This document shows positions 4,075 through 59,316 of a DNA stretch of 64,000 nt, piece by piece. Below the pieces are notes generated by a model that searched no databases, was not told the origin of the DNA, and saw only the letters and a list, made by a program, of their open reading frames with translations. Position 1 is the first letter of the stretch; the number at the start of each line of letters is the position of its first letter. The stretch is from Morinoia aosen (taxonomy: Eukaryota; Arthropoda; Malacostraca; Amphipoda; Talitridae). Position numbers and translations under genes: made by a program. The stretch lies in contig CM059556.1 of assembly GCA_030386875.1 (NCBI GenBank), positions 35,442,964 to 35,506,963 of the forward strand, written 5' to 3'.

Positions 4075-4300
4075 TAGTTTTAGCCTCCCTACCCACAGCA
4101 ACAAATGCGATCCAAAGAGAGGAGAGAAGGCACCATTCAGTATGGAGTTAAGGAAACGCAAAAATGTGGAAATCTCTTGGAATTCGAGCGGAAATCTCTT
4201 TTATTGCAGAAGCCTGATCTTTCCAGTAAGAAATAGTCATCCACTTTCTGAGATGGTTGGAAAGGAACGTAAATCTCTTTCATCGCAGAAGCCTATCCAA
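4075..4300 (-). mobile_element. SINE-like fragment
   Basis: The tail half of the same family (GCCTCCCTACCC to GGCACCATTCAGTATGGAG on plus), followed by a locally repeated module containing AAATCTCTTT and GCAGAAGCC. Confidence 0.6.
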
Positions 4301-7384: not shown

Positions 7385-7835
7385 ATCTAGAAAGAAAATA
7401 AAACTTTAATGTTTGATCTAGAAATAAAATAAATCTCAAGTGTTCGATCTACAAATAAAATCAATCTCACTTGTTCGATCTAGAAATAAAATAAATCTCA
7501 ACGCTCTCGATCTCGAAATTAAATCAATCTCAAGACTCTCGCTCTAAAAAGAAAATAAATTGCATGGCTAAAAAAACATACCTCAAGACTCTCGCTTTAA
7601 AAAGAAAATACATCGCAATGCTAGAAAAAAAACTTACCTCACGACTCTCGCTTTAAAAAGAAAATACATCGCATGGCTAGAAAAAAAAACATACCTCACG
7701 ACTCTCGCTTTAAAAAGAAAATACATCGCATGGCAAGAAAAGAAAACATACCTCAGGACTCTTGCTTTAAAAAGAAAATACATCGCATGGCTAGAAAGAA
7801 AACATACCTCAAGACTCTCGCACTTGAAAGAAAAC
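7385..7835 (+). repeat. Minisatellite downstream of Rab4
   Basis: First about 35-bp units (GATCTAGAAATAAAATAAAT), then five units of 52-58 bp with CATCGCATGGCTAGAAA, CATACCTCACGACTCTCGCT and TTAAAAAGAAAATA. Confidence 0.8.
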
Positions 7836-7934
7836 AAATCCCAAAAGTCTGGATCAAAACCAAATGTCAAGACTCTGAAGGCGCTGGGCCGCAAGGAGAG
7901 GGCGTGCGTCGGCAGGCAGATGCGGGTGACTACA

Positions 7935-19801
<11,867 letters not shown>

Positions 19802-23147: not shown

Positions 23148-26100
23148 GTAAGTGAAAGCTTCACAAACGTTCTGAAACCTCGGCATGTTTATGTAAATTC
23201 CGTTTTTAGACGCGCAAAGGTTTTTAATGTTTGATATGTTTTCATTGTTTCACATCTTGAAGACAGATGAAGCATGAGTATTTCAGAGAAAGCATAGAGA
23301 AAAAACAACGGTATAATGATAAATTTCAGTTCTGCTTTCTGAGAAACTTTTTGATTGTGAATAACTTGGTCCCCTTATAAATTCTTGAAGTGTCATTCGT
23401 CCGATAAATTTTGTCCGTAGCATCTTTGTAGCTCTTCCTTTCACCTGGCAAAAATTAACCCTGAACAATTGGTATTCTTTAGATTTTGCAGGTATTGACA
23501 CTAGTTTACTCGATTGTTTACGTATATTTTGCCGTCGTTCACAACACCACGCACTTTCACAACTAATATTTATTCAAATGGTTCTCACAAACCACCATGT
23601 AATTTTGAAAGTATTTTTTGTGAGTGTAACGTCATAAAATCAAATTGAAGAACTTACGCATGTCTACTGAAATAATTTTTTGATGTATTATAGGTCTGCT
23701 TTTGAGCCTTGAAATGCTGGTACCATAGCTGAGTTATCGAGGTGCAACAGCTTTTGGCAGGAGTGCTGGTTTGGTTGCCTGCTTTTTGCAACTGTGGAAA
23801 GCGACAGAAATGAGGCGCCCTTTGTTCACTTACGATTACACTATGATCAAATTCTTCTGCAATTTGAGGAAATAGTCATACGCTCTCTCCAACGAATGGT
23901 GTATTTTGTCACGAAAAATGTCGTAATTCATTAGGCTTGATATTCAATTATGGCTTATCTATTTGTACACCTCGGATGGTTTGTCAATTAATACTCCTCG
24001 TATGGAACTTTTGTTTTAGGTCGTCTTATATTAAGAAACTTTTAAAAGCCAATATGTTGGCATGTATCTCATGTGGCAACTTGGAAATAAACGGTTTTGT
24101 TTGTTTGTTTGTTTGTTCAATCACGCACCATTGCTTGCTGTTTAAGTGCGTGTTGTGTCTTTCGACAGGACATAAAACACTTATTTCTTATTGATATGTT
24201 TTACACAGTAACCTAAAATTCACTCACTTTACTCGAACACAGTTACTGATGCTTCTTCTACTACTGTTTTTTTAATCTTTAATCTACTCACTGTAAAAAA
24301 CTATCAACTAAAGTAATAGCTCTCTTCCAGTTATGAATTCAGCTAATTGAGCATTTCTGTTACACACTGACACTACAATACTTCTTCAACCGTTGGTTTT
24401 CGAACCCCTTAACTACTTACAGCGCAACATCATCCACTGAAGTAATCGCTCTATTCCAGTAATAAACTCAGCTAATCGAGCATTTCTGTTTCAAGAAAAA
24501 AATGAAAGAAAAACAGTTTATTTCCAATAAAGTTAAAACATGAAATGGTTAACATTGTTTTTTTTTAAATATCTCAACATTAACAGTAGTGTCATACATT
24601 CAGTATACATACAATCGTAAAACAGTAGGAAGGAATTTTAGATCGCTTATTTCTGCGTGATCTGGATGGTAACTTTCTATTTTCTTATACTCAGGCGATG
24701 TTGAACGCGATGGAACACAGTGGTCTCAGTTTGTCCGTCATTTCCGAGTTCATCGTGACGTTTGCTCGACGGGATCCAGCTTTCGCTTGCGTGAGTGTCC
24801 GAAAGTAATTTGTCGGTAGCATTTGGATAGTGAAGCATTATAGATGACGTTGTGAAGTAGACAAGCAGTTAGGAAGAAAATGCAAAGAATACGCTAAGAA
24901 TTGGAACGATGTCGATTGCGAGTCTGTAAAAGATGTATACGGCCAAAGCTAGGAAGCAGGAAAATTGAACGAGCTAGCTTAATTTTTTGAATGCATTGCG
25001 GTGGAATTCGTCGTTTTAGATATCTCTTAATTTTATCAAAGCTCCATACTAAGACGGTGTATAACTTAGAGTTAAAGTCAACGTTTCTCAAAAGGATACA
25101 AACAAGATGCTAAAACTGGATTATCAAGGCCGTAGCACAATCTGAGGTGAGTAAGAAAGAAAAACAGTCAACGTGGAGTGCGCACACAGCTGTCTTTCGT
25201 TATACGAAACAATTCTGCAGCAAGCGTAGTGACTGTAAAGTGTGTCACGCAAAAGGACGACATAATAACGAGTAATTGAATTAGTATTTAATCCAAAATA
25301 CAGTACACGATGAGCTCACACGCACAGTTATTCGAATAGCGCTGAAGATGAAGATTTACAATTGACTCTGAACCATTTCGGGCGAGATGGTACCAGTGTG
25401 AACAACTTTCCTACAACGCGCTGAGGATACATAGAGATACAACGTAAAAAGAAAGCAAAAATTGCATGCGTCCTGATTAATTTCGTTACCGGTTTGCTTT
25501 GAGAGGTATTGAATTCAAGCTCCTATTGATTTATTCAGCCAACACTTATATCGGGATGCTGAGCATAATTTTTTTTTGAAACTGGTCAAACTCATGAAAA
25601 AGAAAACCTTTTAGGTAAAGTGCTCGGCGCAGTGTCTAGACCTGGATGGTGACTGACGTCAGTAGAGCTTGGATTGAATTGCAGCTCGTTACAGCGTCTA
25701 AACCTGGATGGCGCGTGGCGTCAATGAAGGCTTGGATTGAATGGCAGCTCTGTATATATTACAGTATATAGAAGTAGAATAATTTTCAGGTAGAATTCGT
25801 TTCGGTGACGTTTATTTTCTTTAATAAATCACTAGTATGAATTTTCCCCCAAGATCGTTTACTTGCCAATATGTATTGCACCAAAATGTGTTTTACCGTC
25901 AAAATACGTTTCACTCTCCAGAACACATCATCGCAGCCCCAGCGCTGGCCATCCGGTTTTATACCGTACGAAATCGGTGACGGATTCTGTAAGTTTAAAT
26001 GATTTATTTGATTGCGCTCATCAAAGGACGTAACAAGGTATATAACTAGATCCCAATTGACAGTCGTGTTTCACTGTACGGTACTCTATGCAAACGTTGT

Positions 26101-29100
26101 CGCTCATGCAAACTCTCTCAGTCATGAATAACTTAAATGGGTAGGCATATGAAATGATTCAGTTGAAGCTGAATGCGAGGGGGCGGTAACTCAAAAATAC
26201 AGATCAAAAAATAACTCTTGGTTATAGGTCTCTTTAAATCCTTCACCAAGTGGAGAATGTCTATGAAATTACCCCATTAAAAGTTTAGAACACTTTGGTA
26301 TGCGGTTCTTTACTCAAACATCGTGGAGTAAAACTCGAATCGTCTTCTCCGAACTGATTTACATTGAATTCTTGTTTTGATTTCTTGAAGCTAGTTACTG
26401 ATTCATCAGATAGCTCGTAGTAATTTCCTGTTCAATGTCTACATTTTCTCAGAAGGCCTATATCCTATTTTTAAACAGGTTCACCTGTTCTGTAGTTTCA
26501 TCAGATTGCTTGTATAAAATTTCGGCTCGATGTGCAAATTTTGTCAGCAAGGCCATGTTTCATCTAAAAATAAAAATATATTACTTGAAGAAATTCACAT
26601 TTCAGGTCATCTACATCTCATGCCATGCTGAAATAATAGCGACGAGAGTTTTTACGGTGTTATTTATGTCTATTCGATCAATTTCACTTAAAAAGCTGCC
26701 CAACGTTAATTGCAATTCAGCCTTGTATGAAAATGAAATTTACATCAAACAAAATAACTTGAGGGCTCCAATTTTAAGCGAACAGTCAAGAAACTGTTAA
26801 TTTTTATTTTTTCTCAAAGATTTTGTAACTGGAGCAGGGATGACAGCCCTGACATGAACCTGTAGCCAGAGTAGGTAGGATGACATCGACAAGAACCTAT
26901 AGCTAGAGTGGGTATGATAGCACCGACATGAACCTGTAGCCAGAGTAGGTACGATAACATCGACAAGAACCTGTAGCTAGAGTGGATATGATAACACCGA
27001 CAAGAGCCTGTTGCTAGAGTGGGTATGATAACACCGACGAGAACCTGTAGCTAGAGTGGGTATGATAACACCGACAAGAGCCTGTTGCTAGAGTGGGTAT
27101 GATAACACCGACGAGAACCTGTAGCTAGAGTGGGTATGATAACACCGACAAGAACCTGTAGCTAGAGGGGTTATGATAACACTGAAAAGAACCTGTCGCT
27201 AGAGTAGGTTTGATAGCACCGACTAATATTTTTGTTTGATGAATCGTACGTATCATTTTCCCGTGTTTGGCGAATCACAACCTGGCGACAGCGTCTAGTG
27301 CCCAGGCCATCATAGACGCAAACATGGAGGAGTTCAACAAAACTACGTGCCTCAAGTTCGTGCCTCGGAGCTCCCAAAAATTCTTCCTAAGGCTGACCCC
27401 TTCTCCTCCCGACTGCTTTTTTACCATCAGGGAAATGGAATTGATCTAGTGAGTACAAAATTTGAATTGTTCTCTTAGATAAATAACAACTGTTGCGAAG
27501 GAAAAGTGGTCTCTGATGTTCTCAAATTATCGGGACTCCAGCAACAGTTAATGGATTACATGAAATGACTTAAAGACGTCGCTAAAACATAAGGATTGAA
27601 ATGTTAGTCATGTTTGGATGGAGGTATATAAAATGAAAATTATTCGGCGATGGGGATATTAACAAATGTTTTCAAGATTTCCAAATAAGTTACGATGTTA
27701 TAAACACTTGTTCTAAACCAAGTTTGTCAGATGAAGCTCAAGGATCAGCATGTTACCTGAATTTGTTAATTCCAATTGAGTGTTATATTTATCAAGTTGG
27801 CCATTAACTGTATTGTGCACAACTTATGTTTAATTCGTCCACAGTAGTAGGACCCTGTCACTTGGATACGTGAAGCCAGAAGAACACTCTTTATTTGGAG
27901 CAGAAGAAAAGTCCGACACAACGGTGGTCGAAATTGAACTGCCTAACTCTTACGTCGAGAGAGAAGGGATCTTGCTGCACGTGATGCAGATCTTGGGCTT
28001 CTCGAGACAAGAAGTCAGGTACGACCGAGATGACCACATACACCTCATGTATCCCAGCACAGTCATCATCTTTCAGAACGCTTTTAAAAAGGTTAGATGC
28101 TCTCAGTTAATGGTTACAATTTGTGCGCTTTTCTTATACGATTACATCAGTTTCCTTTCATTAATGTCAAAAGGAAATGATATATTTGTAACCCGCATAA
28201 CATAAAGTAACGGATATTTTTTTCTATTGCGCTAGTGTAATATTAGTCTGCTATCCGGAGTTAAGATGTACTTTCACGTCTAGGAACAGAAATTAGGACA
28301 GATCAGAAATCAGGAACGAAAAATGGGACAGAAATTACCTTCAGGGAGATTGTCACTAGACCCGCTTCTTGAGCAGGCATCCAATGCGTGTTTACATATG
28401 ATAATATCAGAACCTGATGTACAGGCGTACTGTTTAATGTCTGAGTTTGAGAAATGAGAAAATTGCATATGAATATGCATATCTCTTCAAGTTGCCTGTG
28501 TGAGCCAACTTGACTTGGCATTGAACTGATGACTGGAACAATGAGCCTTATTCTCATCCGTGGCATGATCAAGCAGGTTTAAAGCATTCGAAGAAAAGAC
28601 TTCTAATATGAGAGTGCACTGAGTAATTAAACCCGGAAAAAACACTGATGTATAGAAGAAAGCGAGCGCTAATGTTCTGATCACGGTTATAATTTCTTCT
28701 GATTTTTGTATTAAGGTTCTCTGTACTATCATCACAGTGTTACAAGATTTTTTTTGCATTTCAGAAGCAAGTGTCGTTTTCCGAATTTTCCATTACAAAA
28801 TGATGAAAAAGTAAAATGTGCCTGTTAAATTTTGCTCTATGTGTATTTCAAAAGATTTTCACCCCTAAATATCAAAATTTTGCGGGGAAAGGGAGGGAAA
28901 GGAGGAGAGAGGGTGCAAATAAGAAAAAAATCATTAAGTATTTGTTGCAATTCTCAGAAGTATTTTAAATAGTGAGACTCTATGTGTATGTGGTTTAGTT
29001 TCAAATGAGAAATCGAAATATTTCCTTAACCAGTTTGCTTTTATCTCAGGACTCAAAAATGTGGTATCCACAAAAGTACTTTAAAGACTGTAATACCCTA

Positions 29101-31784
29101 TGCATGATCTAAAATCGAGTGAGAGTTCAAAAAACACTCCACATCAACAATAATTGTCATACCAACTCATGATCTCACATGGAATGCAAGTTTAAGAAAT
29201 ACTCCACTCGATCACTTCTCTCTTGCCTCAGAACTCAGAGAACCCCTTAGACAAACAGTTCCCGTACGATGCAGAGTCTGTGACGCAATTATCGTCCGAC
29301 GAGGCGAGCCACTGGAAAGTTACGCTCCAGTCCAGGCACGAGGACCAAAAGCTGCGAGATGGCTACACAGGCAGCCTGTCCAAGGCGAGTGAGGGTTCCG
29401 TTCATCCTCAAGTTGTGCGTCATCGTCTTTTGCTAACCTTAACTTATACGGATAAAAATTAATTCCACTTATGCAACGGTGCTTGGTTCGGGTTGGTTTT
29501 GGAGGTTAGCATAATACGGTGGTTAGTTCGGATAATTTATTGTGGTTGCATAATAGGGTGCTTGGTTAGGATAATTTTTGAAGTTTGCTTAATATGGTGT
29601 TTGGTTTGGATGATTTTTGAGGTTTGCATGAAACAATGTTTGATTTGGAAGATTTTTGAGGTTTGCATAAAACCGTGTTGGATTTGGATGATTTTTGAGG
29701 TTTGTATAATACGGTGCGTGATTTGGGTGATTTTTGAGGTTAGCACAATACAGTGCTTAGTTCGGATGATTTAATAAACCTTATTTGCGTTTGTTAAATG
29801 CAACCTGAACATTGTACGCTGTTTATCATTATATTATATTAAAAATTTGTTCAAGTCTCCATAACCACAGCAAAGGTGCTTCCATGAGAGAAAACAGAAA
29901 GGTTCAATTTACCATTGAATTAAACGAACGAGGAATATATGCACTAGAGTGTCCACACCCTTGATTCCGTGCGCATAAAAGCAGCTAAATCCAAATAAAA
30001 TTATGAAAAACGATAAAATTTAAAAAAGAAGCACCAGAAGAAAAAGAAAAACAGTTTATTTCTATTAAAATTCATAAAAGACATCATTGGTTCATGAGAT
30101 TGATTGACATTAAAATCCATAGTTGATTAACACACATGGGTATCGTAATACCAAAGTAAAATGTCTACCGAATGATTGAAAGAAAAACACGAGAAGATGC
30201 ATTCTCTTTGTTAGGTTATGCTACGTTTGATCATAAATGTGTAAATACAACTTGAAAAAATACAAAGAACTTAATGCCAGTGACGCATTGGTCAAAGCGC
30301 TCTTATTAGAGGGCACTTACATTGAAATACGAGCTGAAGAACTGATGATACAAGGGATTAATGTTAAAAATAGAATAGGTGGAGTGGAATAATTTTACGT
30401 CAAGACTGAGAGGTCGTCGAGCTTGCGAATCAACTAGTATGCCAAATAGCTTGCTCGGAGAAAATACTTTTCCTCATCACTCATATATGATATTTCCCAA
30501 GTAAAATATGCTTGTACCTAAGAGTTTTCCAGTCTCAGAAACGAGGAAAGGATTTGTTGTACAAAGTTAACCAAAACATCTTACAACACAATTGGAGCAG
30601 TTCATGAAAGTGACTACCTAAGTTATGCTGTCAAAATATACCCACGAGCGCCAGAGATTAAAAAGTACCGATCGCGGTTAAAAAAAGAATTGTACGACAC
30701 AAATTAGAGAAAATAGCTTCATGTATTCAGTACCTGCAACTCATGCAGTACCTCACATCGTGCTTCTAAGAGCACTTAGTCTTATACTGCAGGTGCAAAA
30801 ATTTGTATCTCCTTCTCGGGCGCACTGATTATTTAAAAATTTTACGCCGCATTTTTCTCTTGCAATGTTAACACACTATATTTAGAAACACGGAATATCG
30901 ATAAAATGGTCAAGAATACATCCTGAATTCTATTTTAGTCTTCCAGCCACGACAAATTCTAAAAAAAAGTTATTGGCCAAGTATTGTAAAGAAGTACGCA
31001 CTTATATTCTCTGCATATTAGGGTACAAGATATTCTTTATAATCATCAAAATCACGCACGCAGCATAACTTTTAAGCTTCACATGTCTTTAATTTATGAA
31101 AAATAATTTGTTCTTTTCAGAAGTTGACAAATATTGAAGACTATTTTCCACGCATTCTGTAACTACCAATAGAAAGCAATGATGATCACGGCCGTCGTTG
31201 AATTTCAAGCATCTTCATGAGTGAAACGGGGAAATTATGACTAACTTTATTCTTTCCCCAACGGAAGAAACGCCAGCTTAATACTACTTTGTTTGAACAC
31301 TCTACTTTCCCTTCAAAAGTTGAACGCTCTAACCACTACGCCACGGTGTTAACGTTTGTATTTCTAAACCTGGGGAAAGCGTCTTTCTTTTTACATAGCT
31401 CGGTTTGAGAGGTTATCCAAACGATTCTAGTCTAACTTTTTCGTCGGAGCATCTATGATTTTGGCCACTCATTGCAGAGGATATATTTCACCAGCTAAAA
31501 TCACAGATGCTCCTGCAAAAAAGGTAGATTGTAATACTGTTCTAGAAAGTTAAGATAAACGTCTCAAAGCCCTTCTAATGAATTCATCATCTCTTTCCTT
31601 GCAGATGGATATTCAGAAAATAAACTTCGTGTACTGCAATTCCAAAAATTCTGCAGTCAAGGAACAAAAAACTCCGATCACACCCTCAGGAATGAGCGAC
31701 AGAGACAACCCGGATAGCCCCATGCAAGGTGAGGCTTTCACTGAGGGAGAGAGGGAACTGGGTTCATATTTGTTAAAATTAAAA

Positions 31785-31815
<31 letters not shown>

Positions 31816-34800
31816 GATGGCATTATCAGATAATTCAGCTCAAGCCTGCCTGACCGTGACGTAGGCGTTACAATGAGATGAAGGAAGAAGACACCATTTA
31901 GTATGGAGTTAAAGGAACCGTATTTTCCCATTAGGAAGGGCAAATTTGGAAGAGTAAATGGCTAGCTATTCTGCGTAGCGTTAGTAATACGATGTATAGC
32001 AAAAGTGAATTATTCAAAGTTATTACGAATTGATCCAAAATTTAGTTTTACATTTTTAGGGAAAGAAGAGAAGCTTAAATACTGCTGAGCAAGATCAATG
32101 CAAATTAACTTGTTAAATTATTTATATATGACATGATAATCGCAAGAAATAATACGAGCGTTTGTATTCGTTTGAATGGAAAGAAACTATTATTTTAAAA
32201 AATTGACCTCATGAATGATAGATCACACAACAGTTTGCAGCGGGGCAAACTGATTAAACTCAACTCGTCTGATTTTTAGTCTCCTAATTTTTTAATTCTA
32301 GAACAGTTTGCAATGGGGCCTCATTGTTATTATGCCAAGGAGTTTTGTGGCAGGGAACACAATTGCTCACCTATTTTTGGTTTCAATTTACCAGCAGCGA
32401 CTAGCACGGATCGTAGCAAGCAAATAAAGCTGAAACATACACACGGCGGCGGAGACCAAGTAGAACCTCTAGACATCCGTGCGGGTAGTTCAGGTGAGCT
32501 TGATCGAGCTGCTTTCATGGGCCTAGTCAAATGTCGCTCACATTATCGGAAATAATGCATGAAATATGCACAGAACACATGCAGTGTATAGTGATGCATC
32601 GAACTACTTTAGCGCAATTACTGAAACCACGCTTTCATTATCGGAAATAATGCATGAAATATGCGCGACTCACGTGCAATTTGTAAAGATGTATCGAGCT
32701 GCTTTCATGCAATTACTGAAAACTCAATAACCTCGTTGTCGCAAAATATGCGGGGCGTACATACAGTCTAATGATGTATCGAGCTCATTCTTAGCACCCA
32801 CTCCAACCTCAATAAAATTGTCATCGGAAATATTGAATAAAATATGCGTGATAAGGATGTATAGATTCGTTTGTAACGCTAAATCTGAACTCACACACTT
32901 TGAATATCCCAGCAAATAGAGCGGTCAACGCAATATATATTTTGCAGAACACGTCAGTGAACGAAAATGCGGCGCATGAAGTCGATCCCATCATGTATTC
33001 CAGTGAGAATAATTTTCAATATAATGGTAACAGAAAACAATGACACACTCATGACCAAACGCCTGAGATTCTGTTTTGAAAAAAGTTTGCTCCAACCCAT
33101 ATCAGGAAATAATTTTAACTGCTTTCATAAATTAGAAGTTCGTTACGTGTTAAAATTCTCAGCAAATTGCTTATCATTTTACTAAATCACACTATAGTCA
33201 ATAGGTAAAATGCAACGTTTCAATGCCACTGGCATCATCATCAGGCTGAAAAGATGAAAAGAAAACTGGTCACTCAATAGAATTGAAACAATCATACAGG
33301 CAAAAACAAAGACCATTAATAAAATTAATGCAAAAAACACATGAATGTAAAATACCAAGACTAACTTTCTCAACACATGTTTATCAGTTTATTAGTTAGT
33401 TTAAGCCTCCCTATCCTCAACAATGAGATGTAAAGAGAGGAAGGAAGAAGGCACCATTTAGTATGGAGTTAAGGGAACGTGGAATCTATGCAGAAAGGGC
33501 ACAGAAACAGAAAGCTAAGAAAGAAGTTCATGAAACAAGAAAAAGTTGAAGAAGAAAGTGGTAGGCGGTGAAAAACAGGACAGCAGTGAACCGAAAAAAA
33601 GATGGTCCGTAACACAACAAAACCTATTCTATTTCAACAAACGAAAGCCTACCTAACCTTTAGCTCGGGCCCTCACATTGTCCCCCTGGGAGCGCTAGTT
33701 CCCATAGATACAATAATTGTATCCCCCTGAGGGGTCTCAACACATGTTCACTTAGCCGAAGAATAGAGCGAAATGGTGGACTGCAACGATTGTTCCAACA
33801 ATTTACGGCGCGGTTCTTTTAAACAATTTCAGAGCAAAAAAATCATTCATATTTTCATTGAGGGAAGGTTTGAGTTTATGGATATGTAAGGCTTCAATAA
33901 TGTGAATATGCTGTTTTTTACGGACATTATACAATACTTTAGTAGCTGGATAGAGATCTTCATTAGAGGGCTTGGAGCTGTGATGAATACGGAAATGGTT
34001 AAAAATTGAGCCTTGATACTTATTTGCATTTAACCGCTGCTTAAGGGTCATTCTAGTCAAGCCAATGTAACAGTTGTTGAGAGACATACATTCTCTCCTC
34101 ATACATTTAAATTGATAAATTACATTGGCCCTATCTAGATCCCCGACCGCAGGCATTGAAATATTGTTTTTCACAACAAGGTTACTGATTTTGCGATTTT
34201 TGTAATAAATAAAAATTTTTAGTCTGTTATTACTATCAACAGGCTTGACAAAAGTGCGTATTATATTCTTAAAGACTCTTTCATCTATTTTGTAGTTAGG
34301 GTGCATTTGATTTTCGTAAAAAATCTTGACGTAACTGGAACATACATTAGCATGGTTATAACCGTTTACTATTCTACTCAAAAAATTATTAATTTTGCAG
34401 TCAACAAGGGTATTAGGGAAATTATTGTTTACCAGTAACCGTTTTATTCTAAGTACTTCTATGTGAAAATTTGCCCAACTACTGCACACTTTGTAGGCTC
34501 TATTCAATAATGTAGAAATTACACCTTCCTTGTAAGTCTGTGGAGCTTCACAATCATAATTAATAGTTTCCCCTGCATGTGAAGGCTTAGTGTAAACTGA
34601 TCTCTGATAAGAAACTTCTGCTGCCTCAACAAGAACGTCCAAAAATGGCAGCTTCCCCTCTACACCGATTTCATATGTGAACGTCAAAACAGAGTTACCC
34701 ATCATCAAATCTCTTAGCGTTTCCAACTGATTAATACTATCCACCGCCACAAATATATCGTCAACATATCTACCATACACAAGCGGTTTCGTAGGCAAGG

Positions 34801-37800
34801 CGCTTAAGACCATGTTTTCCACAAAGCACATATAAAAGTTCGCAAACGTTGGTCCCAAGGGTGATCCCATAGCCACGCCATCCACCTGGCGGAACAAGTT
34901 GCCGTCAATGTGGCGAAACGGAGCTTCAGTTGTGCAAATGGTTAGAAGTTGCTTCATGAGATGACGCGGGAACTGACGAGGTGCAGGAAGATTTTCACTC
35001 TTATAGATGTAATCTAAAATTATTTCGATGGTAGCAGCAACAGGAACATTAGTAAAAAGAGATTCTACGTCCAGCGATGCTATCACTCCACTTGGCTTCT
35101 TACCGCGTAACAATGTAATAAATTCATCAGTTGACTTGAGAACGTAATCTTGTGGAAGATACGGTGTTATTATTCGGTTTAAAGTCTTAGCAACAGGATA
35201 GGTAACAGTAGGAAGTTGCGATATTATTGGTCTCAACGGTGGGTCATTCTTGTTTTTATGAATTTTAGCATTACCATAAATATAACCAGGTTGATAATGA
35301 CCTTCTAATTTCTTCAAGTCGAATTCGTTGGGAACAGCGTTAACAACAGAAATCAGTTCATTGAGTTTCTTCTTTAGTTTTTCTGTGGGGTCACGTTCCA
35401 ATTGTTCAAATTTAGTATTGTCAGCAAGTATTGCGTCCAACTTTGCCTTATAATCATTAAATTTAAGAAGAACATACATATTGCACTTATCCGCTTTCCT
35501 GATCACAATGTCTTTATTACTCCGTAAGTTGCGTATTGCCTGGCGCTGATCTTGAGTGATTCCGGAACGACTTCGCATGCTCCGATTGCGGGTGCTTTCA
35601 GCTATGAGGGCAGCATCAAAGTTAGGCTCCACCGAAACAGTCCCATCTCTACTGAGGCGGAGAATATTTTGGTACACTAATTCTAGTTCCAATTGTTTTT
35701 TGATCGGGTCAAAACGGCTACTTGTGTGATAATTCCAACCCAGGTTTAAAATACTTTTTTCAACGTCAGTTAGAGCCTGGTCAGTTAAATTTAAAAATCT
35801 GTCTTGTTTCTCGGGCAGGAGCAAATTTCCATTGTAGAGTTTATTCAGCTTACGGGAGATTGCTGCCAAGTTTTTTTCATTTTCACGATCTCTTGTGAAC
35901 TGCATAGCTTCGTCGAATAGAGGTAAAACTTCTTCATGGGCTGAAAAATGAAAATTCTGAATGGCATTTTTGAGTGCAGGTTCCAACTGATTCTTCAATG
36001 CTGTTTTCTGTTCCACTTCTTTGATGATGGGTAACTCTGTTTTGACGTTCACATATGAAATCGGTGTAGAGGGGAAGCTGCCATTTTTGGACGTTCTTGT
36101 TGAGGCAGCAGAAGTTTCTTATCAGAGATCAGTTTACACTAAGCCTTCACATGCAGGGGAAACTATTAATTATGATTGTGAAGCTCCACAGACTTACAAG
36201 GAAGGTGTAATTTCTACATTATTGAATAGAGCCTACAAAGTGTGCAGTAGTTGGGCAAATTTTCACATAGAAGTACTTAGAATAAAACGGTTACTGGTAA
36301 ACAATAATTTCCCTAATACCCTTGTTGACTGCAAAATTAATAATTTTTTGAGTAGAATAGTAAACGGTTATAACCATGCTAATGTATGTTCCAGTTACGT
36401 CAAGATTTTTTACGAAAATCAAATGCACCCTAACTACAAAATAGATGAAAGAGTCTTTAAGAATATACGAGGCCTGTCTAAAAAGTATCCGACCTTTGGC
36501 CAGAAAAAATATTTCGAATACCTGTCGGAGTTGGGACCCTAATCCCCTTCAAAGTATGCCCCTTGTGCTTGCACACACTTAGCCCACCGATCCTTCCACT
36601 GCTGGAAACACCTCTGGTAGTTTTTTTTTAGAATGGTGTTCAGCTCCATCGTCGCATTGCCTGTTTGACTCCTTCGATGCTGACTGTTTTCTTTGATGTC
36701 CGTGGAATTGTGCATCACGAATACGCACCGGAAGGACAAACAGTGACAAAGGAGTACTATCAGGATGTTCTCCGGCGACTTCGTGATGCAGTTCGGCGCA
36801 AAAGACCAGACATGTGGACTGCGAACAACTGGCACTTGCATCACGACAACGCGCCCGCACATTCATCCCATTTGATCCGCAATTTCTTGGCCAAACATGG
36901 AATTACGACCGTTCGCCAACCTCCCTACTCTCCAGACCTGGCTCCTTGCGACTTCTGGTTGTTTCCAAAATTGAAGACACCACTGAAAGGATCCCGTTTT
37001 GAGAGTAGAGAAGAGATAATGCGGAACGCGACGACAGAGCTGAACACCATTCCAAAAGAAGACTTCCAGAGGTGTTTCCGGCAGTGGAAGGATCGGTGGG
37101 CTAAGTGTGTGGAAGCACAAGGAGCCTACTTTGAAGGGGATTAGGGTCCCAACCCCGTCAGGTTGTTGAAGTATTTTTTCTGGCCAAAGGTCGGATACTT
37201 TTTCGACAGGCCTCGTAATACGCACTTTTGTCAAGCCTGTTGATAGTAATAACAGACTAAAAATTTTTATTTATTACAAAAATCGCAAAATCAGTAACCT
37301 TGTTGTGAAAAACAATATTTCAATGCCTGCGGTCGGGGATCTAGATAGGGCCAATGTAATTTATCAATTTAAATGTATGAGGAGAGAATGTATGTCTCTC
37401 AACAACTGTTACATTGGCTTGACTAGAATGACCCTTAAGCAGCGGTTAAATGCACATAAGTATCAAGGCTCAATTTTTAACCATTTCCGTATTCATCACA
37501 GCTCCAAGCCCTCTAATGAAGATCTCTATCCAGCTACTAAAGTATTGTATAATGTCCGTAAAAAACAGCATATTCACATTATTGAAGCCTTACATATCCA
37601 TAAACTCAAACCTTCCCTCAATGAAAATATGAATGATTTTTTTGCTCTGAAATTGTTTAAAAGAACCGCGCCGTAAATTGTTGGAACAATCGTTGCAGTC
37701 CACCATTTCGCTCTATTCTTCGGCTAAGTGAACATGTGTTGAGAAAGTTAGTCTTGGTATTTTACATTCATGTGTTTTTTGCATTAATTTTATTAATGGT

Positions 37801-40800
37801 CTTTGTTTTTGCCTGTATGATTGTTTCAATTCTATTGAGTGACCAGTTTTCTTTTCATCTTTTCAGCCTGATGATGATGCCAGTGGCATTGAAACGTTGC
37901 ATTTTACCTATTGACTATAGTGTGATTTAGTAAAATGATAAGCAATTTGCTGAGAATTTTAACACGTAACGAACTTCTAATATATCGTGATGCTGAGAAA
38001 TTAGTAAAGAAGCTTTCAAAGTGCGTGTCGGCTATACTGTTTAATGAGACGTGTCTGCGAGAAGGTTTTCTCCCGACCTATACCAATGTTCGCGTTTATG
38101 ATGAAGAAGTCAGACAGTCTAATTTGACCCACAACTTTAGGAAGAACTTGCTGCTGCATGAAGTGGAACAGAAAACAGCATTGAAGAATCAGTTGGAACC
38201 TGCACTCAAAAATGCCATTCAGAATTTTCATTTTTCAGCCCATGAAGAAGTTTTACCTCTATTCGACGAAGCTATGCAGTTCACAAGAGATCGTGAAAAT
38301 GAAAAAAACTTGGCAGCAATCTCCCGTAAGCTGAATAAACTCTACAATGGAAATTTGCTCCTGCCCGAGAAACAAGACAGATTTTTAAATTTAACTGACC
38401 AGGCTCTAACTGACGTTGAAAAAAGTATTTTAAACCTGGGTTGGAATTATCACACAAGTAGCCGTTTTGACCCGATCAAAAAACAATTGGAACTAGAATT
38501 AGTGTACCAAAATATTCTCCGCCTCAGTAGAGATGGGACTGTTTCGGTGGAGCCTAACTTTGATGCTGCCCTCATAGCTGAAAGCACCCGCAATCGGAGC
38601 ATGCGAAGTCGTTCCGGAATCACTCAAGATCAGCGCCAGGCAATACGCAACTTACGGAGTAATAAAGACATTGTGATCAGGAAAGCGGATAAGTGCAATA
38701 TGTATGTTCTTCTTAAATTTAATGATTATAAGGCAAAGTTGGACGCAATACTTGCTGACAATACTAAATTTGAACAATTGGAACGTGACCCCACAGAAAA
38801 ACTAAAGAAGAAACTCAATGAACTGATTTCTGTTGTTAACGCTGTTCCCAACGAATTCGACTTGAAGAAATTAGAAGGTCATTATCAACCTGGTTATATT
38901 TATGGTAATGCTAAAATTCATAAAAACAAGAATGACCCACCGTTGAGACCAATAATATCGCAACTTCCTACTGTTACCTATCCTGTTGCTAAGACTTTAA
39001 ACCGAATAATAACACCGTATCTTCCACAAGATTACGTTCTCAAGTCAACTGATGAATTTATTACATTGTTACGCGGTAAGAAGCCAAGTGGAGTGATAGC
39101 ATCGCTGGACGTAGAATCTCTTTTTACTAATGTTCCTGTTGCTGCTACCATCGAAATAATTTTAGATTACATCTATAAGAGTGAAAATCTTCCTGCACCT
39201 CGTCAGTTCCCGCGTCATCTCATGAAGCAACTTCTAACCATTTGCACAACTGAAGCTCCGTTTCGCCACATTGACGGCAACTTGTTCCGCCAGGTGGATG
39301 GCGTGGCTATGGGATCACCCTTGGGACCAACGTTTGCGAACTTTTATATGTGCTTTGTGGAAAACATGGTCTTAAGCGCCTTGCCTACGAAACCGCTTGT
39401 GTATGGTAGATATGTTGACGATATATTTGTGGCGGTGGATAGTATTAATCAGTTGGAAACGCTAAGAGATTTGATGATGGGTAACTCTGTTTTGACGTTC
39501 ACATATGAAATCGGTGTAGAGGGGAAGCTGCCATTTTTGGACGTTCTTGTTGAGGCAGCAGAAGTTTCTTATCAGAGATCAGTTTACACTAAGCCTTCAC
39601 ATGCAGGGGAAACTATTAATTATGATTGTGAAGCTCCACAGACTTACAAGGAAGGTGTAATTTCTACATTATTGAATAGAGCCTACAAAGTGTGCAGTAG
39701 TTGGGCAAATTTTCACATAGAAGTACTTAGAATAAAACGGTTACTGGTAAACAATAATTTCCCTAATACCCTTGTTGACTGCAAAATTAATAATTTTTTG
39801 AGTAGAATAGTAAACGGTTATAACCATGCTAATGTATGTTCCAGTTACGTCAAGATTTTTTACGAAAATCAAATGCACCCTAACTACAAAATAGATGAAA
39901 GAGTCTTTAAGAATATAATACGCACTTTTGTCAAGCCTGTTGATAGTAATAACAGACTAAAAATTTTTATTTATTACAAAAATCGCAAAATCAGTAACCT
40001 TGTTGTGAAAAACAATATTTCAATGCCTGCGGTCGGGGATCTAGATAGGGCCAATGTAATTTATCAATTTAAATGTATGAGGAGAGAATGTATGTCTCTC
40101 AACAACTGTTACATTGGCTTGACTAGAATGACCCTTAAGCAGCGGTTAAATGCACATAAGTATCAAGGCTCAATTTTTAACCATTTCCGTATTCATCACA
40201 GCTCCAAGCCCTCTAATGAAGATCTCTATCCAGCTACTAAAGTATTGTATAATGTCCGTAAAAAACAGCATATTCACATTATTGAAGCCTTACATATCCA
40301 TAAACTCAAACCTTCCCTCAATGAAAATATGAATGATTTTTTTGCTCTGAAATTGTTTAAAAGAACCGCGCCGTAAATTGTTGGAACAATCGTTGCAGTC
40401 CACCATTTCGCTCTATTCTTCGGCTAAGTGAACATGTGTTGAGAAAGTTAGTCTTGGTATTTTACATTCATGTGTTTTTTGCATTAATTTTATTAATGGT
40501 CTTTGTTTTTGCCTGTATGATTGTTTCAATTCTATTGAGTGACCAGTTTTCTTTTCATCTTTTCAGCCTGATGATGATGCCAGTGGCATTGAAACGTTGC
40601 ATTTTACCTATTGACTATAGTGTGATTTAGTAAAATGATAAGCAATTTGCTGAGAATTTTAACACGTAACGAACTTCTAATATATCGTGATGCTGAGAAA
40701 TTAGTAAAGATGCTTTCATAAACTTAAAATATTCTTTCTGCAAATCCGTTTTCATCAAGTCCTGAAGGAAAGAAAGACTACACATTTTAAAGAGTTATGG

Positions 40801-41073: not shown

Positions 41074-41599
41074 GCACAGAGCTCGCGTGGTCCTAGTTCT
41101 CGTTGTGGTGTCTAACATCTTGTGTTATTCGGCAACCTTTCACATTGAAAGCATATGAGTACCATAATTAAAACCTAAAACAAATGCGAGGACGAATGTA
41201 CAGGTTTATGAATTTTAATACTATGTATTGGATACTCATTTGTGTTAAGCTAGTGGAGAACTTAGTCAAAGAAAATAAATGGTCTCATAGAAACATGTTG
41301 TTAGCAGTTGCAAACAAAATTAAAAATCAAAACACTGTTAAGTAGACACGCACGTGCTATTTGGCTCAAATACATCAATTTTCACTGCATATTTTAGTTT
41401 TTCTTCAAACCCAAACCTGCTTTAGCGTAAAACCCACCGGGCTTAAAAATCAAAATGCTCAAATTCTTGCAGTTCAGACGTGAACTACGAACACTTAAGA
41501 TCCTATTTTGGAAATGAATTGGCATACCCTTTGAGTTTTATCTTCAGCGAAGCAGCATTAGCCACTGTAAGGATTTATTGTAGTTGTCTGTCAAGAAAA

Positions 41600-42655
41600 T
41601 TAAATCAATCAATAATAATATTTCTGATAGGTTGATTCTTCCAGCATAGAAGATAGAATTTGGAATATTCCGAAACGTAAACAATAAATAATGCACACTT
41701 TAACCGTGGTCCTCATTTTCATCTTCGAACATGAGGAAATAAAAAAGGCACTATTTCTTCTCATAAAACTGAGTAAACTGAAAGAATTAAACGAGGTCAA
41801 AACTAGATTGTAACATTGCAATCACAGATAATCAGTGAAAAATTTATATGATTTTCGAAACTCAGACATTGACTGTGAGGTGACATACTTACGTAAGCAG
41901 GAAATAAATTAGCGAATTTTCTTCGTTACTTCTCAATACAAAAAGAAAAACTTCTGAGAAACTTTAATTATAAATTCAACATGTTGCTAAAAAAGTTAAC
42001 GCTAGTCAGTGTTGAGGAGTCAGATCCCAAGAAAGAGTGAAGTAAGAAGCTTGGTTTCATTTTTGTTTACTAATACAAAGCGCAATTGCCTGGAATGAGA
42101 GTGGATGTGTCAACACAAGGTAAACAGCCTCTCGGCCCCTGCGTGAGGTCTCGGTCGCATTCTGAGTCCGTGCGAGATCGAGAACGAAGTTGCAGTCGAC
42201 GTAACATGCTCTTTTATGCTGACTGACCGGAGTTTCGAGGTTTTTATCGAAGTTTTGTGCTACCAAACTGGGTCATTTACCTTTATCAATTGACCTAAGT
42301 TGCAAGGTTTTTAATGAAGTTTTTCACGAAAAAGTAACAGGGTATTTTAAGTCGATTAACCAAAGTTTCGAGATTTTCAGCCAAGTATCGCGACGAAACA
42401 GGTTTTTTTCAATGACTAGTAAACTTAAGTTCAATTTCACCAAAGTTTCATGCCTTTAGGAAAATAAAATTTTAATTTTCCTCGCCGGAATACATTTAGG
42501 AAAATAACATTTCGATTTTCCACGCCAGAAACATCAATTAGTTACCTGCAAAATCACTTAATCTAGAAAAAAAACAGAAAAAACGACCGGAGGTTTTACA
42601 CCCACGGTTGAACCCAAAATAAACACTCCCAAAACTACGTTATCAGTACGAGCTG
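41600..42655 (+). promoter_or_regulatory. Duplicated upstream region of gene B
   Basis: About 1.05 kb preceding the gene B start codon is closely repeated before gene C (55,640-56,815), including a minisatellite of about 60 bp units (42,222-42,480). It must contain promoter and 5' UTR, but no core element could be pinned down. Confidence 0.45.
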
Positions 42656-42799
42656 ATGAAGCAACCAAGGAACTCAGGTGTCAGGGTGTTGCTGGCGGTG
42701 ATACATCTGGTGATCTTGAGTGCCCGAGTTGGAGCAGCTGTGAAGATGCCCTACGTCATCACGAAGTCTGGACTGAAGCTGTACAGCATCGCTGAGGAG
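42656..42799 (+). CDS. Gene B exon 1, signal peptide
   Basis: MKQPRNSGVRVLLAVIHLVI followed by LSARVGAAV, a classical n-, h- and c-region, then KMPYVITKSGLKLYSIAEE and a GTGCGT donor in phase 0. A near-identical exon starts gene C. Confidence 0.78.
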
Positions 42800-44269
42800 G
42801 TGCGTCATCCTCAAGTCTGTTGGTAGACCCTTGAGTGTCTGAAGTGTTAGGAATAAGTCTCGAGTGTTAGAATTGTGTCTGAAAACTTAGAAATGAGTTT
42901 CGAGAGTGAGCAATAAATTAAATCAACCCTTAGACCGCAATTGGTAAAACTGAAGTTCAATATTCAATTCAAATATAAAGTCAATTTCAGTAAGCAATTT
43001 TGAAAATAGCAATCATCATGTGGATCATCCTCTCATTAAGCTTTAAGTGTTTTTGAAAATTAAGTTTATTACTACTGGTCGGTCAGCAGCATTATGAAAA
43101 TGCCCACCGTGGCCACCGGTGGTGCGCGTTGCAATCAATGTGATAAATTAAATTTAATTGCTCCTGAGATTATGCAATATGGCGCTGGAATTATTACCCC
43201 CAGACCTAAGCCTCATATTTGTTAATAAAAAAGACCAATTGGAATGTTAAAAATATATTTAGGTTAAAAATATCAGAAGGGGCCTGAAATAACTCCTTCT
43301 AACCATGAGACAAGAATTTATGGACTAGGAAACAAAGTATTATGACTCATGTGATGATCATTTATGAATAGTAGTGTGAACAATTTTTACATTCATTTTT
43401 AACTTTTAATTTCTTCTATTTCCTCTACCTCAGAACTTAATCCAAAAGGCAATGCAAACACCTGTGTCTGTAAATACCATATCTGAATTTATACGTATAC
43501 ATTCTATTGCCATCCTTAGAACTTGACGCAGGCGACACCGGCAACATCTGTGTCAATGAATGCCTTCTCTGAATTTACGTAAATACCTTATCTTAACCCA
43601 CGTTCATTTAGCAGTTCGAACCCTAGCAATGCTGCCCGGTGATTCTCCCCATTAGAAATGGGGAAAACTACGCCACAATCCCCACTCCACCCTGGTGTCG
43701 GAAATGGGTACTGGCTTCACCGAGGGTAACCGTCAAGGAGTCCTGGTGTTAGTTAGAAAGCAGTTGAAAAATCAATGTACAAGATGATATGTAACAGGCT
43801 TGGTTGGAATAAGGCATCTTTTATCCGTCCTGGTGTAAGTCATAAGGTATTTGAAAAACCATTGTACCAGATGATATGTTTCGGGCTTGATTGGAATAAA
43901 ACATCCTTTCTTTCTTCCAGCCCCAGAACTCGACGCAAGCAACAACAGCAAAGCCGGTGTCACAAAGAAACAACGTTCCCTGGCTGCCGCGCCCGTGGAC
44001 GAACAATCACATCCCAGTTCAGATCGACTATAACAAATACTGTGAGTCGAAATGCACGGCACGCTTTCGAGTGCTCCTGCTGATATATTAATGGTCACGA
44101 GCGCTGAGAAAACTTCTATTCTTCACGTTTCGTTTGCAACTTCTGACTTAAACGTCGTGTATGTACTGATAGGCCTTGAGTTTTGTGTCCTAATTTCAAT
44201 TTTACTGATTGAAATTTGTCCCAGTTATAGTCATAGCTTAACTCGTGAATAGTATTAGTTGAATAATTA

Positions 44270-44301
<32 letters not shown>

Positions 44302-44852
44302 TACTGAACAACAAGTTTTTTTTACTGGAGATGTGTAAATTGATATAGACTAATTCGGGTACGCTGATTTCAAAAATCATAACCGTTTTGCTGTATCACG
44401 TCAGGATTTTCAGTTACAGACATACTTTTCCTTCTGCTTTCAGTGTCGTCACTGAACGTGATACAGCAAAACGGTTATGATTTTTGAAATAAGCGTACCC
44501 GAATTAGTCTATATCAATTTACACATCTCCAGTAAAAAAAAATTTTTGAAATTTTTTAATTTCAAAAAGTCATTTAAAGTCATTGCTGAAGTAATTTGAT
44601 TTCTTACACACATAAAAGATAGTTTGTGTTTGAGCAAGACTAATTTGGGTACGCTGATTTCAAAAATCATAACCGTTTTGCTGTATCACGTTCAGTGACG
44701 ACACTGAAAGCAGAAGGAAAAGTATGTCTGTAACTGAAAATCCTGACGTGATACAGCAAAACGGTTATGATTTTTGAAATCAGCGTACCCGAATTAGTCT
44801 ATATCAATTTACACATCTCCAGTAAAAAAAATTTTTTGAAATTTGTTGTGCC

Positions 44853-44900
<48 letters not shown>

Positions 44901-47900
44901 ATTGGCACTTGCATTTAACCAAGCATTTCAGAGGTCAGTTTGGTCTCTGCGGATATGGTTTAGTTAGATTAGATTCTGCAAGTAAGGCCCAGCCATTTTT
45001 CAAATCAGCGTTCACTCTAAATATATAAAAAAAAATTCACACCTAAATATTTTGATACCTATAAAAAATGATAATTTTTTAAGATTTCAAGCCGCATTAT
45101 ATACCGGATAGTTAGCTTATATTTATATCGAACTATTATCGTTTTTTTAAGCGCACTTTTTAAGCCAGGAGTATAATTTTGTAATCGACGACCATGTTAA
45201 ACTTTCCGAGTTATCGCAACGTCAGTTTTATTGGGCTTGGGAAAAATAATAATACATACTTCTTTTCAGCTACTGAAGTTCAAGGTCGTATAAAGGAAGA
45301 TCTCACTAGCTTCAACAACCAATCCTGCGTGAAAGTGAAGGAAGGGAATTGCAGCCTCGAGCAACCAAGTCCGTGCATCAGAATCTGTCCGGCAGCTCCA
45401 CAAAACTTGGCAACTATGTGAGTTTCTAATTGGAAATACGAGGTTCCGAAAAATTACGGCTTATAATGTCTCAATGCTTTATTCGACTAACGCTTAACAA
45501 TTACAGAATATGATCGGTACGAACAGGTAGAGATGACGCAGTTCCGTGTAATAAATATATATGAACTTATTTAGTGTCAGATAGCTCCAAAACATAAATA
45601 TTTTGAGCGTGAGTAGCCCCTCTACGACCACTGGGGTGACTTCTAAAAAAGGCAACCAGTCAGGCACGAGAATGGGTTCATTTCTTACACGAAAAATTAA
45701 AATCCCTCTGTTCGATCAAATGCAAATTTCAAACATTAACCTTTTGTGCCTCACTTTATAAACTTCTATTTGATACCTCCATTTCGCAGCAAGCAAGTGT
45801 CTGAGCCCGGCATGCCCCCGAGTGCAGGAACGTGGTACTACATCATACAAAACATAGACATCAAAACGAACGGCTTCTTACGCCACGCCGCGGCCCTGGC
45901 AGGGCTCCCGAATGAGCACAACCGCTTCGACAGAGACGAGTTTCTCGTACTGAACACGACGGACAACAGCGACTTGACGATCTTCGCTAAGGTGAATTCG
46001 GGGTGTGAAACTTGATGTGACCATAGAATATGGTGGTGCGAATATGGTTGTATCAGTTGAAACTCAATGTGAGCATAAGAAAGGTGATGTGTGTATGGTT
46101 GCGTCAGTCGAAACTCTATGTGAGGATAAGAACGATGGTGAGTGTATGGTTGTGTCAGTCGAAACTCAATGTGAGCATATAAAGCATATAGAGGTGGTGT
46201 GTCACAACACGATGTATTTGCTAGGGGATGTGTGTATTATGGTGAGGCCTAACCCAAAGCGATGTGAGCATAGGCAAGGTGGTGAGTGTCTGGCAATGTG
46301 TGTCACAATACGATGTGAGGGTAGGAAAGGTGATGTGTGTGTGTGTGTGTGTGTGTATGGTTGCGTGTGTCGTAACGTGATGTGAGTATAGGCAAGGTGA
46401 TGCGTGATATATGGTGAGGTCCATCGCACCAGCAACAAAAAAGTACAGAGATGAAGATAAATCCCGATTGATTGCGTTGTCTAATAGCTTCAATAATAAA
46501 AAAACAGAATGTGTGAGGTATGGTGTGATGGAAATTATTCGCACATTACACATACAATATTGAGGAAAAAATGAAATTAAAAATTTAATGTTACTTTTTA
46601 CTGCCATCAAACTTTTGAAAGTACTCTTCAAGTAGATAATACAATAATCGCCTTATCAAAGTGAAATTGAAGAATTGAATGAAAGATTGTCTATCTCTTC
46701 CGCCACTACTTGCCAGTTTTGAAGCAATTTTTTTACTGCGCATCATTTGAAAAATGATGACGTACCCATCTATAAAGTGTTTTTTACCCTACATAGGACG
46801 AAGAATCGTTCCTCCGCGAGACCCAGTACGACTTCCACTCGGCAACACACATCCCGTTCGATATTGCCAAGAACATGAGCCAGGTCACCATGTCGCTGGT
46901 CAAAGCTGAGAGGACAACCTTGTTTGGGGGCAGCGTCCCGCTCACCATTGCGAGACGGCTGAGTGCTGTAAGTGAAGTATTAGGATAGCGTCCATGTAAC
47001 TATTGTAAGACGGCTGAGTGCTGTAAGTGAAGTATTGGGATAGCGAAGTCTTAGAGCTGTAAGTGAAGTATTAGGATAACGCGTACGTAACTTTCGCAAG
47101 ACGGCTTAGTGCTGCACGTTGAGTATGGGTAAAGCGTTCCTTTTACTATTGAAAGAGGGCTTAATTAATGTTGACATATTTTTAGTTTTATTTCGCAAGA
47201 CAATTTAGTGCTGCAACATAAAGTTTGAAGACAGCGTTCTTTTCACAATTGCAAGACGACTTAATGCTGTGTGTAAAGCATTTACTCAGCGACTCTCTAC
47301 CGCGGCTAATCGTCTTAGGGTTCTGGGTGAAATTTCTCTATTTACCGCAGTGATTTTTTTGACTAACATCCTTTGTTTTCACAAAATACAAGTTCACCAT
47401 ATGTTTTTCATAACGACCTAATTTTGAAAAACTTCACGCAGAAAGACATGAGCAGGATCGATAGCATCCACAACTGCACGGTTTACACCTCACCCCCTAC
47501 GATGGTCAACTCCACCGTCGTGGGTGGAGTTCAGAGCACAACCGGCAGGACAGTGAATGGCAGCCGGTGTCCAGTTTGTACCACGAGACGGTTCACAGTC
47601 TCAGTTGGCATTGGGCCCCCTAGGAGCAACGTTTTGAGTGCTATCGACACGAGTTCGGGTAAGCTTTTGTCGTATGTGTACAGGGTGTCCTGTACATCAT
47701 TCTTTGAATCTTTAATCAGTATTCTGTAATCATTCTTTGAGTGGTGACGATTTTTCAATAATTTTTTGTTTTTTCCTATGAAAGTGAATTTTATTAATTT
47801 AATTTTCTTGAGTTTAATGTTCGTTTGTTTGGTCTAACTTATTAGACTTGTCTCTGTGCCAAGACCTACATAAAAACAAAACACGTGAATACTGGGACAG

Positions 47901-56815: not shown

Positions 56816-56959
56816 ATGAAGCAACCAAGGAACTCAGGTGTCAGGATGTTGCTGGCGGTGATACATCTGGTGATCTTGAGTGCCCGAGTTGGAGCAGCTG
56901 TGAAGATGCCCTACGTCATCACGGAGTCTGGACTGAAGCTGTACAACATCGTTGAGGAC
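56816..56959 (+). CDS. Gene C exon 1, third astacin-like paralogue (partial)
   Basis: Differs from gene B exon 1 by a handful of codons (for example MLLAVIH for VLLAVIH, VITESG for VITKSG, NIVED for SIAEE). The GTGAGT donor is intact. About 1.1 kb upstream is also duplicated. No later astacin exon was seen before the window ends, because the following 7 kb is repeats. Either the rest lies beyond the window or this is an orphan exon. Confidence 0.6.
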
Positions 56960-58896: not shown

Positions 58897-59311
58897 GTGA
58901 CACAGCACCGCTCCCACACCATACGCACTACTGTCAGCCACTACCACTATGGGTAGGTTAGGGTCAAAATGGATTAAGGTCTGGGAGTCTAGGAGGGCTT
59001 GTTTAGATTTCTGGAATGCCTTCTCCTGACTTGCATCCCATTTTCAATTATTTTTATCCCTCAGTAAGGCATTTAGGGGCTCCAACATAGTTGCAGATGA
59101 TTTTAGAAATTTTCTGTAGATGTTTAGCAACCCCAAATAAGCTCTCAGCTGAGTCACATTAGTAGGAGCTGGTGTATTCCGGATTGCAGATACCTTCTCT
59201 GCAGTGGGGTGCAACCCATCCATGTCGGTCTGATATCCGAGGTAGGATACCTGTGACACTCCTATTTGAAATTTATCCATTTTCAGTTTTAGCCCTGCTT
59301 CCTGTAGTTTG
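58897..59311 (-). pseudogene. Gypsy RT end and RNase H start
   Basis: Resumes FKLQEAGLKLKMDKFQ, SYLGYQTDMDGLHPT and LRAYLGLLNIYRKFL. After a stop it continues as an RNase H start (HFDPNLPIVVVADSSAYGVG) and runs into the LTR. Confidence 0.82.
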
Positions 59312-59316
59312 AATAA

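Follow-up and report, generated by a model that had tools for sequence, protein, structure and literature searches.

Catalytically dead astacin-like genes in the amphipod Morinoia aosen are probably members of one lineage of secreted pseudoproteases

Results

Two astacin-like genes in tandem. The stretch of DNA analyzed here (the window) comprises 64,000 nucleotides of the genome of Morinoia aosen, a talitrid amphipod (contig CM059556.1, here C1, positions 35442964-35506963, within a 29-contig, 1.99-Gb genome). It carries two genes for astacin domains, the fold of a family of zinc metallopeptidases, in which the residues of the catalytic site have been replaced. Gene A has five exons (25922-31728 in window numbering), and gene B has six (42656-47658); B' is a tandem copy with the same six exons as B. 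Together with X1 and X2 on contig C18 and their copies X1' and X2', these genes constitute the dead family described below. A preliminary description of the window had placed the paralogues at 27848-45991, a range that lies within the two genes but covers only the part from the third exon of A to the third exon of B.

AG acceptors precede all five exons of A, the donors are GTAAGT, GTGAGT, GTTAGA, GCGAGT, and GTGAGG, and the frame stays open for 249 codons over the five exons, the other two frames holding 10 and 9 stops. Base-shuffled versions of the A exons averaged 11.8 stops, and 0 of 20,000 were open; the comparison addresses frames that stay open by chance rather than selection. Splice phases 0,1,2,0,0 are common to A and B, a phase-1 end of exon 5 is possible in both, and every exon found of A, B, B', X1, and X2 is open. 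The GC content is 0.489 in the exons of A and 0.538 in exons 1 to 5 of B, against 0.31 to 0.39 in introns. With the exception of the GC donor of A exon 4, the preliminary description was therefore right that open frames, splice sites, and the phase pattern are kept in both genes and that exons are richer in GC than introns. Since B exon 5 ends in phase 1, further exons are expected. Exon 1 of B has an AG at both candidate starts (43921 and 43927); in B' the AG before the 43921-type start is lost, and the AG before the 43927-type start, six bases on and in frame, is kept.

A simple scan for hydrophobicity followed by a splice donor found signal-peptide-like leader exons in B, B', X1, and X2, and we predict that these four proteins are secreted. 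The preliminary description had suggested roles at the cell surface; the sequences look secreted and do not show such a location, though no search aimed at a membrane anchor was made. Behind the domain, the tail is Thr/Ser-rich in B, Gly-rich and more than 100 residues long in X1, and Gly/Ser-rich in X2. Comparing the frames beyond exon 5 (X1 against X2, B', and A; X2 against A) gave nothing or weak matches only. B and B' share downstream frames near 48687-49003, and also in a repeat near 59270-59759, which we take for duplicated DNA rather than exons. In intron 4 of B' (stretch L024, about 3660-4200) there is a tandem repeat of ~55 bp that by eye looks like the last part of exon 4 and the splice donor behind it.

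The former catalytic site. Once spliced, all five members exceed the gathering cut-off of Pfam PF01400 (22.5 bits), with A at 77.0, B at 30.1, B' at 30.7, X1 at 57.6, and X2 at 45.7 bits; first-pass exon joins, to which the finished ones add A exons 4 and 5 and B exon 5, had given 36.8 bits for A and 25.2 for B. A profile of the five members matches 17 distinct solved-chain sequences at an E value of ≤0.1, of which 15 bear the names astacin, hatching enzyme, BMP1/tolloid-like, or meprin, the other two being named "LOC792177 protein" and "Metalloendopeptidase."

Within this recognizable domain, the HExxHxxGFxH columns read LHVMQILGFSR in A, RHAAALAGLPN in B, GSLMRVLGFNR in X1, and QTLMYILGVPR in X2; the corresponding residues of an active astacin from this genome are HELMHAVGFWH. 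The zinc signature HExxHxxGxxHE is absent from all four (A, LHVMQILGFSRQ; B, RHAAALAGLPNE; X1, GSLMRVLGFNRE; X2, QTLMYILGVPRE). The three zinc-binding His positions hold L/Q/R in A and R/A/N in B, our alignment agreeing here with the preliminary description, as well as G/R/R in X1 and Q/Y/R in X2. The SxMHY columns of the Met-turn read SVTQL in A, SATHI in B and X1, and SAAHM in X2. As had been claimed, the catalytic Glu and the Met and Tyr of the Met-turn are gone from both A and B. The further claim that the two genes had lost their sites by different changes holds for the zinc ligands but fails elsewhere, as His stands at the Glu position and Thr at the Met position in both.

The outer frame of the domain is kept in all four genes (R-x-DRD, YD, the two outer cysteines, and a closing LS..D) and the catalytic residues are lost, so the structural frame appears retained and the chemistry gone. 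Both cysteine columns of the long disulphide, which we take to be Cys42-Cys198 in astacin numbering, are invariant in all five members, and we infer that the two still pair in the dead proteins. The columns of the second, inner disulphide (presumably Cys64-Cys84) hold no Cys in A, B, X1, and X2; the pair is present in 7 of 9 active rows of the alignment, one row lacking it and one not covering it. Exon 2 has other cysteines, three in B and one in A. Identity is 24% between A and B and 24 to 33% between A and the other dead members.

The preliminary description had allowed that a nearby exon version might supply an intact motif. None was found near A or B in six frames of the surrounding 164 kb (C1:35402964-35566963), where seven HExxH strings occur, none extending to HExxHxxGxxH, and where two active astacin queries matched nothing at an E value of ≤0.01 besides A's own exons.

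Phylogeny and intron position. In a tree of 13 rows built from all columns, A, B, X1, and X2 fall on one side of a branch with support of 98/100. Without the columns of the catalytic stretch and the Met-turn, the same 13 rows return the dead clade at 83/95; omitting those columns along with B and two active rows that are gappy or long leaves 10 rows and gives 100/99 for A, X1, and X2. The dead genes also share replacements: His takes the place of Glu in A and B, Thr that of Met in A, B, and X1, and Arg that of the third His in A, X1, and X2. Finally, a phase-0 intron after F-x-K and before the YD motif is common to A, B, B', X1, and X2. The active genes whose open frames were read did not show it; they break after PYD (contigs C23 and C14) or after IQAG (C25), run through the Met-turn (C7 and C18), or are intronless there (C8).

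Selection. Two pairs, B/B' and X2/X2', were used for dN/dS; X1 and X1' are too alike, and the frame of X1' is broken. Over exons 1 to 4, B and B' differ at 27 of 642 bases, 15 changes being synonymous and 12 nonsynonymous (dS, 0.111; dN, 0.025; dN/dS, 0.22; Fisher P = 1.5e-4). With the leader exon included, dN/dS is 0.33 (P = 0.0024). In the protein, 12 of 214 residues of exons 1 to 4 differ; the former active-site helix and the DRD stretch are unchanged, and exon 2 and the tail of B are the most variable parts. Across the stretches of exons 2 to 4 compared, X2 and X2' differ by 13 synonymous changes and 1 nonsynonymous change (dN/dS, 0.02; P = 6e-8), and the 83 residues of exon 3 do not differ at all. 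These substitution patterns demonstrate purifying selection on both pairs despite the lost catalytic residues. A ratio near 1 had been named as one result that would speak against a function; in both pairs the ratio is well below it.

Relatives elsewhere in the genome. X1 (minus strand, near 9.83 Mb) and X2 (plus strand, near 9.86 Mb) were found on C18 via the exons of A and B and extended by pattern. Each has a second copy ~850 kb away on the same contig, the longest match between X1' and X1 showing 99.4% identity. The neighborhood as a whole stands twice on C18 (9.83-9.86 Mb and 10.68-10.71 Mb), with X1 copies 99.4% and X2 stretches 84 to 97% alike, which reflects either a segmental duplication whose parts have diverged unequally or, in part, a problem of the assembly.

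The preliminary description had proposed a search for further members, and whole-genome searches with exon 3 of A, B, X1, and X2 and with exon 4 of A, B, and X1 recovered seven dead genes (A, B, B', X1, X1', X2, and X2'). Other matches listed were active genes on C8, C14, C18, and C23 and one unread match on C10 (E = 2.9). When A is the query, X1, X2, and their copies rank ahead of all active genes; when B is the query, B', X2, and X2' are the only matches returned at an E value of ≤10. These were single-sequence searches, which more distant dead members may have escaped. A genome-wide scan with the Pfam Astacin model, which scores the best candidates only, gave 54 matches, most of whose active sites are unread; none lies on C1, and the unspliced single exons of A and B are unlisted.

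Two active-type sequences were seen in passing. At positions 7688-8329 of stretch L038, an astacin exon continues into a tandem repeat (90 bases, in frame) of the segment that encodes its Met-turn, with six SIMHY copies. Stretch L001 (C8:39728997-39729566) holds a near-full-length astacin frame that has no intron and is interrupted by one stop within the match, possibly a retrocopy.

Features of the locus. Coordinates are collected in Table 1. Between A and B lie two inverted, near-identical reverse-transcriptase frames, presumably Penelope-like with a GIY-YIG-like end, and between these elements a fragment of a mariner-type transposase. Elsewhere in the assembly, contig C27 carries several bacterial-looking COX1 genes without TGA codons, and COX1 genes that read TGA as Trp occur as two identical-scoring copies on C28 and one on C29; from these genes there seems to be nonnuclear DNA among the contigs. 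In the mitochondrial-type stretch L044 (code 5), we take the frames to be ND3, ND2, COX1, COX2, ATP6, and others.

Table 1. Exons of the dead astacin-like genes and neighboring elements (window numbering unless a contig is given)
Feature	Position	Strand	Remark
Gene A exon 1	25922-25988	+	RWPSGFIPYEI, N-terminus of astacin domain; acceptor ctccag, donor gtaagt
Gene A exon 2	27292-27448	+	TTCLKFVPR; first Cys of long disulphide kept
Gene A exon 3	27845-28091	+	Former active-site helix, LHVMQILGFSR..RYDRDD
Gene A exon 4	29232-29384	+	FPYDAESVTQL, former Met-turn; GC donor
Gene A exon 5	31605-31728	+	DIQKINFVYC, last Cys of domain, then polar tail; pattern search
Reverse-transcriptase frame	33803-36118	-	771 aa; matched by Pfam RVT_1 in a scan that covered this first frame only
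Mariner-type transposase fragment	36632-37144	+	Transposase_1, DDE_3
Reverse-transcriptase frame	37926-40376	+	816 aa
Gene B exon 0	42656-42799	+	Signal-peptide-like; copy at 56816-56959, 43/48 residues identical
Gene B exon 1	43927-44041	+	Alternative acceptor gives start 43921
Gene B exon 2	45270-45417	+	
Gene B exon 3	45790-45991	+	Former active-site helix, RHAAALAGLPN..RFDRDE
Gene B exon 4	46797-46967	+	QYDFHSATHI, former Met-turn
Gene B exon 5	47442-47658	+	DMSRIDSIHNC, then Thr/Ser-rich tail; ends in phase 1
Gene B' exon 0	56816-56959	+	Tandem copy of B; in window
Gene B' exons 1-5	C1:35508190-35511705 (L024 1227-4742)		Tandem copy of B; past window end

Discussion

We think it probable, from sequence comparison, that these genes represent a lineage of secreted astacin-fold pseudoproteases that lost catalysis once in a common ancestor and diversified with the fold kept. 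Under this scenario, a single ancestral astacin would have lost zinc binding and catalysis, and its descendants A, B, and B' on C1 and X1 and X2 on C18 would have diversified while the fold was maintained. The dead relatives probably hold a nonenzymatic role, acting perhaps as secreted binding or scaffold proteins in which the dead-cleft region of the folded domain would bind a partner (a former substrate, a matrix protein, or an active astacin) and a Thr/Ser- or Gly-rich tail would form an extended extracellular linker. The old cleft region, the candidate for binding, is unchanged in B/B' (helix and DRD stretch) and in X2/X2' (exon 3). The Thr/Ser-, Gly-, and Gly/Ser-rich tails, for their part, would suit an extracellular linker or a matrix role. 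The preliminary description had proposed a preserved fold with a selected nonenzymatic role; the dN/dS ratios support this for B and X2, while A lay outside that test.

The same description had called the loss convergent, that is, independent in A and B from two different active ancestors. The differing zinc-His replacements and the low A-B identity invite such a reading, as does the uncertain placement of B. The dead genes nevertheless form one clade in three of three trees (B being absent from one), share an intron position unlike that of the active genes read, have the same replacements at several catalytic positions, and have all lost the inner cysteines that most active rows retain. One ancestral loss is the simpler account of a single clade with a shared intron position and several shared replacements, and we regard a single loss followed by drift as the best reading of these sequences and convergence as improbable. 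Still less credible is the view that the genes are decaying pseudogenes caught early. The GC donor and missing first exon of A, the interrupted frame of X1', and the differing tails of B and B' would be expected of decay; against this stand the low dN/dS ratios (0.22 to 0.33 for B/B' and 0.02 for X2/X2'), the open frames of all exons found in A, B, B', X1, and X2, the failure of any shuffled version of A to remain open, and a divergence of A from its relatives that is too great for recent decay.

Several observations nonetheless weigh against a single loss under maintained selection. The branch of B is very long, and the support for the clade drops when the tree is built without the catalytic columns. 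The trees have no root, and their nine active rows (seven in the 10-row tree) all come from one genome. The leader exons of B and B' differ by 5 nonsynonymous changes and 0 synonymous changes. The synonymous divergence of the pair (0.09 to 0.11) is lower than the divergence of its introns (0.13 to 0.26, or 13 to 26%), so exon conversion or codon constraint is possible, and conversion may inflate the likeness of the two copies. Beyond about residue 41 of exon 5, the tails of B and B' no longer resemble each other, and the gene models of all members end with that exon. A gap in exon 3 breaks the frame of X1', perhaps owing to haplotypes, to the assembly, or to decay of the copy, and a pattern search did not find exon 1 of X2. 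Gene A uses GC instead of GT as the splice donor of exon 4; a search for its leader exon yielded two weak candidates, neither of which was accepted; and with no close relative to compare, its case would lean on the open frame and the splice sites.

Two proposals for the role are forms of the pseudoprotease explanation and compatible with it. The dead domains could be dominant-negative regulators that inhibit proteolysis, either by pairing with active astacins or by occupying the substrates of these enzymes. Such regulation would draw on the kept fold, the likely secretion, the standing of exon 3 (the old cleft) among the least changed parts in both pairs, and the many other astacin exons of the genome (54 Pfam matches), and the regulation of active relatives by pseudo-members is a theme described in the available part of a 2024 review (PMC11266112). 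We hold it as a tentative proposal, since no inhibitor motif was recognized and structural binding fits equally well. Alternatively, the proteins may belong to a matrix (mucus, egg capsule, shell, or similar), the tail doing the work and the domain serving as a passive knob. The long Gly-rich tail of X1 and the Gly/Ser- and Thr/Ser-rich tails of X2 and B favor this, but what B and B' conserve is the domain, the ends of their tails being unlike, and we give the matrix proposal the same limited credence. Decoy, inhibitor, and matrix binder are equally compatible with the present evidence and cannot be told apart on it.

The sperm leucyl aminopeptidase (S-LAP) family of Drosophila expanded with loss of catalysis. 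Like the dead astacins, these M17 proteins are a duplicated, metalloprotease-annotated family, as far as the consulted part of their description goes (PMC3078892); unlike them, they are sperm proteins of an unrelated fold. A second comparison is with the pseudopeptidase ADAMs of M12B (ADAM2, 11, 22, 23, and UNC-71), whose metzincin domains are inactive and serve in binding or guidance (PMC11266112, available part); they belong to another subfamily and carry disintegrin and membrane parts. According to the same part of that review, M12 pseudopeptidases typically retain the Met-turn (PMC11266112), and the dead astacins depart from them in having lost its Met.

The closest comparison remains with the active astacins themselves (MEROPS M12A/PF01400; 1ast, crayfish astacin; 3vtg, high choriolytic enzyme; 3edh and 3edi, BMP1/tolloid-like). 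The domain order is the same, from the W-x-x-x-x-I-P start and the C-(V/L)-x-(F/V) strand through R-x-DRD after the third zinc position and the YD turn to the final D-x-x-x-I/L...C, with the first and last Cys in place. The dead family differs in lacking the zinc His, the catalytic Glu, the Met and Tyr of the Met-turn, and the inner disulphide pair and, compared with the active genes read, in its intron before the Met-turn. We found no description of an inactive astacin family of this kind in one library of open-licence papers, among the matches listed and judging by title and the start of the abstract, and the available part of PMC4826915 has nothing on the subject. It may well be that MEROPS or genome papers beyond this library already list inactive astacins. 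In the available part of Tables 1 and 2 of the 2024 review, the M12 entries are of ADAM type and none is an astacin (PMC11266112).

Whether the family is a catalysis-free clade of secreted astacins in the full sense strikes us as an evenly balanced proposition: it would have lost zinc ligands, catalytic base, Met-turn, and one disulphide a single time, radiated across two chromosomes while under selection, gaining new tails rich in Gly or Thr/Ser, and become the astacin counterpart of the pseudopeptidase ADAMs, with the dead cleft used for binding. Dead relatives have been described for ADAMs and carboxypeptidases, and the review of inactive metallopeptidases, in its available part, names none among the astacins (PMC11266112). 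A family that has shed its metal and base ligands together with the Met-turn and yet is under selection offers a natural test of what a zinc-free astacin fold does, and also of whether a Met-turn is of consequence in a domain that no longer binds metal.

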